A stretch of 64,000 nt of DNA, from contig CANLDW010000004.1 in assembly GCA_947489525.1 (NCBI GenBank), positions 124,001 to 188,000 on the forward strand. The letters run 5' to 3'. Below, one piece after another: positions 58,505 through 62,156 of the stretch. The position numbers and the translations under genes are program-made. How positions within the stretch are numbered: position 1 is the first letter of the stretch; every line of letters starts with the position of its first letter. The notes beneath the pieces were generated by a model. The model saw nothing but the letters and a program-made list of their open reading frames with translations, had not been told where the DNA came from and ran no database searches. The stretch comes from an uncultured Psychrobacter sp. Its GTDB lineage: Bacteria; Pseudomonadota; Gammaproteobacteria; Pseudomonadales; Moraxellaceae.

Positions 58505-58580
58505 ATATTTGACTTTGCTTATATTTGACTTTGCTTATATTTGACTTTGCTTATATTTGACTTTGCTTATATTTAACTTA
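58505..58580. repeat. 16-bp tandem repeat (ATATTTGACTTTGCTT), 4 perfect copies plus a partial fifth
   Basis: Directly readable; the fifth, diverged copy (ATATTTAACTTA) runs into the rsmE stop codon. Confidence 0.95.
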
Positions 58581-59457
58581 GTAGGGCATGTAAGGTAGCT
58601 AAGGCAACTACTGGCGCCGTTTCAGTACGTAATACACGGTTACCGATCTGCCAAGGCTCAAAACCAACTTGTATCGCATTCAAGCGCTCATCGGCACTAA
58701 GCCCGCCTTCAGGACCAATCAAAAGCTCGATGATAGGTTTAGGCTTTGATAATGTGTCTAAAAGAACTGTTGGCGTTATCCCTTCATCATCAGGTACGCT
58801 CAGCACTAAACGCATATCTGCTGGCATGCCAAGCTTATAGTATGGCTGGGTTGCAATTTCGGCAACGATAGGATCGAGTGCATACTGTACGTGCTCAATG
58901 CGGTGAGCACTCTTTGAATCAGGTTCTGCACGCTGCGACAGCCAAGTATCGATGGGCATAGGCGCAAGGATAAGCGGTGGACGATTAAGACCGCATTGCT
59001 CGCATGCCGCTATAGCGACTTGTTGCCAATGTGCTCGTTTTTTATCTACTTGAGCCGGCTTGAGATTGACCTCGCCGTGATGGCTGCTCAGTAATTGAAT
59101 CACACTAACGCCCAGCTCACACGACTTTTGAATAGCGTAGTCCATACGCTCGCCGCGGCTCATTACTAAGGCTATCTTGCTAGTGATAGGTGCGCTACGG
59201 TCACTTTCATCATATGCCAGCAAAGTAGCCGTTGCCTGCTTTTTACTTATGGTTTGCAAGCGCACGGTATATTCACCGCCAAAACCATCAAATAAGACCC
59301 CCTTGTCACCAACATTAGCGCGCAGCACTCGGCACCAGTGGTGAGTGATACTATCAGGTAGTGCAAGGTTTGCGCCTAAGGATAACTCGCCAAGTTTAGG
59401 ATAAGGGCTCTTAGCACTGCTATCTGAGTGACTGGTAGCATAAAAAAAACGTCGCAC
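58573..59457 (-). CDS. rsmE: 16S rRNA (uracil1498-N3)-methyltransferase
   Basis: HWCRVLRANVGDKGVLFDGFGGEY, IELLIGPEGGLSADE, LGNRVLRTETAP-like motif. Confidence 0.93.
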   Translation of the reverse strand: MRRFFYATSHSDSSAKSPYPKLGELSLGANLALPDSITHHWCRVLRANVGDKGVLFDGFGGEYTVRLQTISKKQATATLLAYDESDRSAPITSKIALVMSRGERMDYAIQKSCELGVSVIQLLSSHHGEVNLKPAQVDKKRAHWQQVAIAACEQCGLNRPPLILAPMPIDTWLSQRAEPDSKSAHRIEHVQYALDPIVAEIATQPYYKLGMPADMRLVLSVPDDEGITPTVLLDTLSKPKPIIELLIGPEGGLSADERLNAIQVGFEPWQIGNRVLRTETAPVVALATLHALLS

Positions 59458-59639
59458 TATTTATTATTCCTGTGGTCTAGCCAATTTTAAGCGCTAATAT
59501 CATAACAGAATATTAATATTATGATAGGGTTGACACTGTCCATATTTTTGCTTCAACACATCTAAACTACTTTTGGAGACCATAAAAAATGGCACTCCAA
59601 AGAGTACCATTAATGCAATACAAAAGAATAAGCTATTAG

Positions 59640-60512
59640 TTAATCTAACAGCCCTAACGCCTCTACCAAACGCTTATTGGGTTCAATCTTGTTCATACTA
59701 TAAAAGTGTATAGCAGGTAAGCCCTCAGCGATTAAACGCTCGCACAGACGGTAGACCACATCAAAACCAAACTCACGAATTGCCTGACGATCATCACCAA
59801 AATCCGCGAGCTGTTTACGAATGTAACGCGGTATATCCGCGCCGCAGCTATCAGCAAAGCGGATTAAATTGCTAGAGTTGGTAATCGGCATGATGCCAGC
59901 AACTAAAGGCTGGGCGGCCGTATCAATACCGCGTTTCTCAAGCGTATCACGCAAGTATAAGTAGCTATCAGCGTTATAAAAAAACTGCGTAATAGCCGCA
60001 TCTGCGCCTGCTTTATACTTATTAACTAAGTTGTCTACATCGAACAAAAAGCTACGTGCTTGTGGATGCATCTCAGGATACGCGGCCACTTCAATACGAA
60101 AGTGATCACCTGAGTGCTCACGAATGAACGCAACCAAATCAACGGCAAAAGGCAGCTCACCCATACCGACTTGTCCTGAAGGTAAATCACCGCGCAGGGC
60201 GACCAAACGCCTAATGCCAAGCTCTTTGTAGAGATCCAATAACTCGCCAATCTCGGCTTTATCATCACCGATACAAGACATGTGCGGGGCAATTTCAGTA
60301 GCACTACGCACGCTGAGCGCCTTGACGATATCTAGTGTACGCCCGCGTGTGGAACCGCCGGCACCATAAGTGACTGAAAAATAGGCAGGCGACAACTCAT
60401 TGAGCTCATCAAAGGTGTTCAGCAGCTTTTCTTGCCCTTGTTCTGTTTTAGCAGGAAAAAACTCAAAGGAAAAAGCAGGCTTAGACATAGACAAAGTCCT
60501 TGTTTGCGTCAA
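59640..60512 (-). CDS. metF: Methylenetetrahydrofolate reductase
   Basis: FSFEFFPAKTEQGQEKL, SVTYGAGGSTRGRTLD, ALRGDLP, ITQFFY, GIMPI. Confidence 0.96.
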   Translation of the reverse strand: MTQTRTLSMSKPAFSFEFFPAKTEQGQEKLLNTFDELNELSPAYFSVTYGAGGSTRGRTLDIVKALSVRSATEIAPHMSCIGDDKAEIGELLDLYKELGIRRLVALRGDLPSGQVGMGELPFAVDLVAFIREHSGDHFRIEVAAYPEMHPQARSFLFDVDNLVNKYKAGADAAITQFFYNADSYLYLRDTLEKRGIDTAAQPLVAGIMPITNSSNLIRFADSCGADIPRYIRKQLADFGDDRQAIREFGFDVVYRLCERLIAEGLPAIHFYSMNKIEPNKRLVEALGLLD

Positions 60513-60530: not shown

Positions 60531-61955
60531 TTAGTATTTGTACTGCTCAGGCTTAAATGGCCCTTCAACCGGCACACCTAAGTACTCCGCTTGCTTATCA
60601 GTCAGCTTAGTTAGCGTACCGTTAAAGCCTGCCACCATTGCAGCTGCGACCTCTTCGTCAAGTTTTTTAGGTAGCACTTTGACGTACAGATTGTCAAAAC
60701 GATCATCAACGGGTAGCTCAGCAAAACGCTCTTCATATAGATACATTTGTGCCAGCACTTGGTTGGCAAAGGAGCCATCCATTACCCGTGAAGGGTGACC
60801 GGTCGCATTACCTAAGTTAACCAGACGACCTTCGGCGAGCAAAATCAGATAGTCATCATCATCGCCTGAGCGGAAGATTTGATGCACTTGCGGCTTAATC
60901 TCAACCCAGCGCCAGTTGTCACGCATAAACTGGGTGTCAATCTCGGTATCGAAGTGGCCAATGTTACAAACGACAGCGCCAGGCTTAAGTGCTGCTAGCA
61001 TGTGCTTATCGCACACATGATAGTTACCTGTAGTCGTGACAATCATGTCGGTATCTTCTAGCAGGCGGGTATTAATGCTATCAGCGCCGCCTGTATTATC
61101 ACCGTCAATATAAGGTGAGAGTACTTCATAGCCATCCATACAAGCTTGCATTGCACAAATCGGATCAATCTCTGAGATACGTACGATCATGCCTTCTTGA
61201 CGTAGGCTTTGGGCTGAACCCTTACCCACGTCACCGTAACCAATGACGAGTGCGCGGCGACCCGCTAAAAACATATCGGTGGCGCGTTTGATCGCATCGT
61301 TTAGACTGTGACGACAGCCGTATTTATTGTCGTTTTTCGATTTAGTAACCGCATCATTGACATTAATAGCAGGCACTTTTAGCGTGCCTTTATTCAACAT
61401 CTCAACTAAGCGGTGGACGCCTGTCGTAGTCTCTTCTGAGATACCGTGAATACGGTCAAGCATCTGCGGGTAGTCATTGTGGATCAGAGCTGTTAAATCG
61501 CCGCCATCATCAAGGATGAGGTTAGCCTCCCAAAGCTCGCCTGATTCTTCTCCGCCCACGTGGACTTGTTGGCGCAGACACCACTCGTATTCCTCTTCGG
61601 TCTCGCCCTTCCAAGCATAGACAGGAATACCAGCCGCCGCGATAGCTGCCGCGGCGTGATCTTGGGTTGAAAAGATATTACAGGATGTCCAGCGTACTTC
61701 AGCACCAAGCGCAGTTAGGGTCTCGATTAGAACCGCTGTCTGAATAGTCATGTGAATACAGCCAGCGATTTTTGCGCCTTTGAGCGGCTGCTCATCTTGA
61801 TAGCGACGACGCAAACCCATCAGGGCAGGCATCTCAGCTTCGGCAAGGGTAATCTCACGGCGACCGTAATCAGCAAGGCTAATATCAGCTACTTTGTAGT
61901 CGGTGAAAGAGGGATCGATTGTATGGGCAGAGGGTATGTTCGACACTGCGTCCAT
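60531..61955 (-). CDS. ahcY: Adenosylhomocysteinase
   Basis: [62 protein letters not shown]-terminal FKPEQYKY. Confidence 0.97.
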
Positions 61956-61994
61956 AATATGCTCCTATCGTTAAGTTGATAAAAAGAATAAAAA

Positions 61995-62100
61995 CGCAGG
62001 TGTCGTTGTTTACGCTGTCCACTGACTAGGTAGTCGTCAATGAAGAGTTACCGAGCCTAACACAGCTTATTGATCGCTGTGGTGCAACACCTCTCGGAGG
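61995..62100 (-). promoter_or_regulatory. S-adenosylhomocysteine (SAH) riboswitch in the ahcY leader
   Basis: Minus strand CCTCCGAGAGGTGTTGCACCACAGCGATCAATAAGCTGTGTTAGGCTCGG...CAACGACACCTGCG: P1 CCGAG/CTCGG, hairpin CACAGC/GCTGTG, conserved GCA and AGGCTCGG, pseudoknot AGGTGT/ACACCT. Confidence 0.88.
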
Positions 62101-62104
62101 AAGT

Positions 62105-62133
62105 ATTGTAATGGATGAGAGGACTGTTGTCAC
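62105..62133 (-). promoter_or_regulatory. Predicted sigma70 promoter for the SAH riboswitch-ahcY-metF transcript
   Basis: GTGACA-N17-TACAAT on the minus strand, placing the start a few nt before the aptamer P1. Confidence 0.7.
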
Positions 62134-62134
62134 C

Positions 62135-62156
62135 TATTGACTCTCAGTAGTCAATA
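62135..62156. promoter_or_regulatory. Palindrome immediately upstream of the ahcY -35 box
   Basis: TATTGACT ctcagt AGTCAATA, perfect 8-bp arms. Confidence 0.5.

Follow-up and report, generated by a model that had tools for sequence, protein, structure and literature searches.

Upstream of ahcY and metF, the Psychrobacter DNA analysed here (a stretch of 64,000 nucleotides, hereafter the window) carries an SAH riboswitch that, judging from its sequence and from modelled folds, probably operates as a translational ON switch, in which the 3′ strand of the P4 pseudoknot alternates between its partner in the aptamer and the start of ahcY. Without SAH, this strand would be held in a start-site hairpin and translation would be low; SAH would stabilise P4 and thereby remove six nucleotides from the hairpin, lowering its stability by about half, and the weakened hairpin would allow ribosomes to start ahcY. 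The AhcY enzyme would then remove SAH, and metF would rise alongside because it lies on the same mRNA. We infer that expression is raised upon SAH binding because P4 and the outer stem of the start-site hairpin are mutually exclusive. This provides a concrete and testable ON mechanism for the SAH riboswitches of Moraxellaceae, one in which a metabolite-sensing RNA would limit the choice of synonymous codons in an enzyme gene and even where its start codon lies. The proposed platform reaches into the coding sequence and shows covariation across more than 200 species. The aptamer itself belongs to a known class and is ordinary; the start-site expression platform is the new part, its novelty being provisional.

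All parts of the element lie on the minus strand (Table 1) and follow one another from 62133 to 61941 in the order promoter, P1 5′ strand, P4 5′ strand, TGC, P2 hairpin, TTAGGCTCGG, P3 hairpin and AACAACG, then the P4 3′ strand ACACCT, GCGTTTTTATTCTTTTTATC, the Shine-Dalgarno sequence GATAGGAG and the ahcY start. The ACACCT strand, exact complement of AGGTGT, is found 47 nt past P1. The promoter, P1, P2, AGGCTCGG and both pseudoknot strands were located where the original prediction had placed them, and its proposal that the element has a promoter of its own agrees with the fact that 55 of the 68 distinct Psychrobacter leaders retain both hexamers and their 17-nt spacer. Transcription would be expected to start near 62098. 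An inverted repeat (TATTGACT/AGTCAATA, window positions 62135–62155, minus strand) directly precedes the −35 hexamer; we rejected it as a candidate operator, as it is not kept in the other Psychrobacter leaders seen. A search of the rest of the genome for a second copy with the core pattern found none. The P2 hairpin is much longer in many Psychrobacter, and in five leaders of this genus (L142–L145 and L148) the P3 region is unusually long, with up to 241 bases between the P1 3′ and P4 3′ strands.

Table 1. Features of the ahcY-metF leader and of the genes downstream (window positions).
Feature	Position	Strand	Remarks
−35 hexamer GTGACA	62128..62133	−	Read from the sequence; 17 nt spacer to −10
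−10 hexamer TACAAT	62105..62110	−	Read from the sequence
P1 5′ strand CCGAG	62093..62097	−	Two-sided changes in 4/6 P1 pairs in Moraxellaceae
P4 (pseudoknot) 5′ strand AGGTGT	62087..62092	−	Every P4 cell paired; 3/6 pairs with two-sided changes
P2 hairpin CACAGC-loop-GCTGTG	62061..62081	−	Stem halves 62081–62076 and 62066–62061
Conserved TTAGGCTCGG	62051..62060	−	Includes P1 3′ strand CTCGG (62055–62051)
P3 hairpin	62018..62044	−	27 bases; variable in length and sequence
P4 3′ strand ACACCT	61998..62003	−	Predicted switching strand; partner AGGTGT or ahcY codons 3–5
Start-site hairpin, 5′ side CGACAC(C)UGCGUUU	61992..62005	−	P4 3′ strand and the bases after it
U-rich tract UUUUUAUC	61978..61985	−	Inner stem, partner of the Shine-Dalgarno sequence
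Shine-Dalgarno GAUAGGAG	61962..61969	−	3′ side of the inner stem
Start-site hairpin, 3′ side GGACGCAGUGUCG	61941..61953	−	Within ahcY, from the third base of AUG to codon 5
ahcY, adenosylhomocysteinase	60531..61955	−	TIGR00936 above cut-off, PF05221, PF00670
metF, methylenetetrahydrofolate reductase	59640..60488	−	PF02219; ATG at 60488 with Shine-Dalgarno AAGGA
Terminator-like hairpin 3′ of metF	59588..59611	−	Between metF and rsmE
rsmE, 16S rRNA (uracil1498-N3) methyltransferase	58573..59457	−	

That the aptamer is of the SAH type is settled by sequence comparison, the binding of SAH being predicted. Homologous leaders are present in 96 of the 106 Psychrobacter genomes, and wherever a P4 3′ strand exists (157 loci) it is accompanied by the 5′ half of the aptamer and by the P1 3′ strand. 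Among 46 distinct Moraxellaceae rows, 96.4% of the P1 and P4 cells are paired, versus 27–38% for slid partners; P4 has no unpaired cell, and two-sided changes affect 7 of the 12 pairs (four in P1, three in P4), counts that are not independent events since the rows are related by descent. As in the Rfam family RF01057 (ahcY motif), P1, whose covariation is noted above, encloses a conserved TGC, the P2 hairpin and AGGCUCGG, the P4 pseudoknot joins the strand after P1 with a downstream CAACG-R-C... strand, in which CAACG precedes the P4 3′ strand, and the whole is placed 5′ of ahcY and then metF. It differs from RF01057 by its long variable P3, an optional part of the aptamer, by a P1 of only 5 pairs and by the P4 strands AGGUGU/RCACCU; P2 is also long in many Psychrobacter. 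Two Moraxella loci depart from the common pattern: in L176 (G337) the element is lost, and in L186 (G327) it lies 226 bases from the start and codon 4 has changed from GTG to GCG. The record BMPS01000002.1 (L038), entitled Streptomyces cinereus JCM 3040, also carries a Moraxellaceae ahcY with this leader; the record as such equals G301, a genome of the window's family, and is mislabelled or contaminated.

The Rfam search suggested with the original prediction fell short, as RF01057 reached 22.2 bits against a gathering score of 37 bits, a curated cut-off that is a database criterion and not a structural feature. At gathering cut-offs, Rfam gave no match in the window and the family search of the whole genome gave none either; RF01057 was the sole match among 4227 families in a narrow search (E 0.03 for 241 bases) and alone matched at E up to 10, with no model match to the SAM/SAH riboswitch RF01727. 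The score is low because the 27-base P3 hairpin precedes the last strand and the alignment misplaces the P4 3′ strand, so that the miss reflects a limit of the model and not the absence of the element. The search itself works, since 159 of 401 genomes across the class exceed the RF01057 cut-off with the same tool. All scored Psychrobacter leaders stay below it (the best of the others reaches 30.3 bits), as might be expected if this were a conserved leader of unrelated function, for example in protein binding. That reading is extremely improbable in view of the conserved aptamer core, the P4 covariation and the relatives of the same family that pass the cut-off. Scores above it were obtained in Alkanindiges (39.0 bits), Perlucidibaca (57.0), two other genera of Moraxellaceae (G314, 57.5; G340, 58.2) and Pseudomonas (59.2). 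The comparative evidence thus fits the SAH riboswitch identity originally put forward, and the curated cut-off has a blind spot that overlooks these elements in Psychrobacter and several of the relatives scanned.

The P4 3′ strand, together with the GCGUUU that comes after it, is complementary to ahcY codons 2–5. The resulting start-site hairpin (62010–61935) has a minimum free energy of −21.8 kcal/mol (z −5.15), and 0 of 200 shuffles were as stable. Folding the leader without the coding start is uninformative and even misleading, as it yields P4 as a nested helix with a z of only −1.7; with the ahcY start added, z is −3.1. When the six P4 bases are blocked, the hairpin drops from −21.8 to −10.8 kcal/mol. 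A duplex estimate gives P4 alone −6.8 to −10.0 kcal/mol, so that the two states would be close and the ligand could tip the balance. In the model, the Shine-Dalgarno sequence has an unpaired probability of 0.04 in both states and only codons 2–5 open, from 0.01 to 0.38; because the inner stem, whose U-rich tract is almost invariant in most Psychrobacter, still covers the Shine-Dalgarno sequence with P4 formed, the ribosome must melt the residual −10.8 kcal/mol hairpin, which counts against the proposed switch. Occupation of the P4 strand makes opening of the start site cheaper in 49/49 Psychrobacter, 15/17 Moraxella and 24/26 Acinetobacter sequences, as well as in 5/6 g8, 3/3 Alkanindiges and 4/4 other leaders.

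The position of the Shine-Dalgarno sequence in the inner stem of the fold is equally what would be seen if an SAH aptamer regulated through the Shine-Dalgarno/U-tract stem alone, the start of ahcY being kept for the N-terminus of the protein or for translation efficiency, and MDAVS is indeed conserved as protein in Psychrobacter. We regard this scheme as unlikely, as the conservation reaches synonymous bases: every one of 90 Psychrobacter sequences has GCA as codon 3 and GTG as codon 4, and 88 have GAC as codon 2, whereas the third base of codon 5, which takes no part in the pairing with the leader G, is variable. Conserved Val and Ala codons further inside ahcY vary freely in the same genus. 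Codon 3 also follows the leader, being GCA or GCG according to the base at 61998, with U-A in 32 rows, C-G in 14 and no broken pair. An exact pattern search of 179 Acinetobacter genomes retrieved CCGCG with CGCGG in 158 and CUGCG with CGCAG in 1, each mismatched combination being found in 0; the CUGCG leader is identical to that in a named A. qingfengensis record (L046). Furthermore, the start ATG[AG][AG]CGC is lacking in all 28 of the ahcY loci in which no P4 strand could be recognised, a comparison confounded by phylogeny.

Energies of leader and start lead in the same direction as these codon patterns. Leaders pair better with their own starts than with shuffled ones (which preserve base composition only) in Psychrobacter (−15.9 versus −8.2) and Moraxella (−15.5 versus −6.5), and by a smaller margin in Acinetobacter (−12.1 versus −7.8, 6% of shuffles being as good). 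For each of the leader classes CUGCG, CCGCG and AUCUG, the strongest pairing is with starts of the same class (−15.9, −13.0 and −16.9 when matched, versus −7.8 to −11.8 when swapped). Of the 192 synonymous ways of writing codons 2–5, a single alternative equals or exceeds the real one in stability, and ahcY ranks third among the 2536 ORF starts of its genome (picked by a simple rule) in complementarity to the P4 3′ strand region. Two-sided covariation of the start-site helix itself is confined to one base pair, with two or more events, and to the relocation that Moraxella and a related genus show (L167, L168, L170, L175, L177 and L184). The relocated class has the leader GACAUCUG(U) and the start (A)CAGAUGUC or UAGAUGUC, with the AUG itself inside the helix; other Moraxella-type loci appear to use a GTG start within GACGCAGTGTC. 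The pairing is absent in four leaders: in L166, CUUAUA pairs with the Shine-Dalgarno sequence instead; pairing is slight in L180; L192 and L198, from small genomes of the Acinetobacter group (G256 and G257), keep the aptamer and have a long hairpin beside the P4 strand, possibly a transcriptional platform. Seven other genomes of the Acinetobacter genus group (G108, G110, G115, G165, G177, G187 and G253), of 2.4–2.8 Mb, gave no AhcY match at 1e-100.

The same leaders bear on the idea, advanced with the original prediction, that a local AACG/CGTTTTT hairpin competes with the pseudoknot. Both AACG and CGUU are present in Psychrobacter and in most Moraxella, and the hairpin is seen in some folds with P4 blocked; it is nonetheless a very improbable competitor, as AACG belongs to the aptamer and persists where CGUU has been lost (L167, L168, L170, L177 and L184), CGUU is absent from Acinetobacter and Alkanindiges, and its stability is far below that of the start-site hairpin. 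In those five Moraxella-type leaders, the loss of CGTT coincides with a change of the ahcY start from GACGCAGTGTC to ACAGATGTC: as far as sequence comparison goes, it is the coding start, and not AACG, that the leader sequence after P4 tracks. We consider it just as improbable that P4 and the U-rich tract form an intrinsic terminator, with SAH turning transcription off. A GC-containing helix followed by GCG and UUUUUAUUCUUUUU has the look of one, but no terminator was called at P4 and the U-tract, this tract is missing in Acinetobacter and Alkanindiges while the remainder is kept, and repression by SAH of the gene that removes SAH would contradict the logic of the pathway.

A btuB-like receptor gene lies upstream of the element. 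The distance of 18 nt formerly given between ahcY and metF relied on a TTG start (60512); the ATG listed in Table 1 is likelier and lies 42 nt past the ahcY stop. Control of both genes by one SAH riboswitch, as first proposed, is consistent with all the comparative evidence and with a previous regulon analysis (Leyn et al. 2014, PMC4239095), which reported SAH riboswitches in two of the four Moraxellaceae genomes analysed, so that the presence of the element in this family was already known. That study, based on scanning with Rfam profiles, gives a Moraxellaceae SAH regulon with ahcY and metF as its core and rsmE (COG1385) as a taxon-specific member, and the portion of its text consulted is silent on the switching mechanism. 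The window shares all three members with that regulon, with the difference that metF and rsmE have a terminator-like hairpin between them; rsmE may consequently fall outside the regulated mRNA.

The proposed switch resembles the SAM/SAH riboswitch RF01727 (PMC7367207) in its pseudoknot fold and translational control. RF01727 has another structure, controls metK in Rhodobacterales and is an OFF switch in which the ligand hides the ribosome site, whereas the window element would be ON. With translational ON riboswitches (PMC10907184) it would share a sequester hairpin that covers the ribosome site in the absence of ligand and opens when the ligand binds. In that scheme the sequester hairpin spans the RBS and AUG; in the window, by contrast, the pseudoknot strand of the aptamer pairs inside codons 2–5 and would constrain synonymous codons. 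We found no description of pairing with ahcY codons in the literature searched, the coverage of which did not extend to the original experimental and crystal papers (PubMed 18374645, 20864509).

Whether the first ahcY codons are part of the riboswitch across beta- and gammaproteobacterial SAH riboswitches, with N-terminal codons (MDAV, MNAV) held by the RNA, seems to us evenly balanced. Such a wider start-codon principle is suggested by the folds of loci above the Rfam cut-off. In several of them, starts of the ATGAACGCTGT type pair with CGGCG or CGUUC located at P4 or 3′ of it. Pseudomonas-type loci usually have a CCAUUCG/CGAAUGG(AG) hairpin as their platform, which shares bases with the P4 3′ strand and extends to the Shine-Dalgarno sequence, and some of these loci have further pairing to the start.
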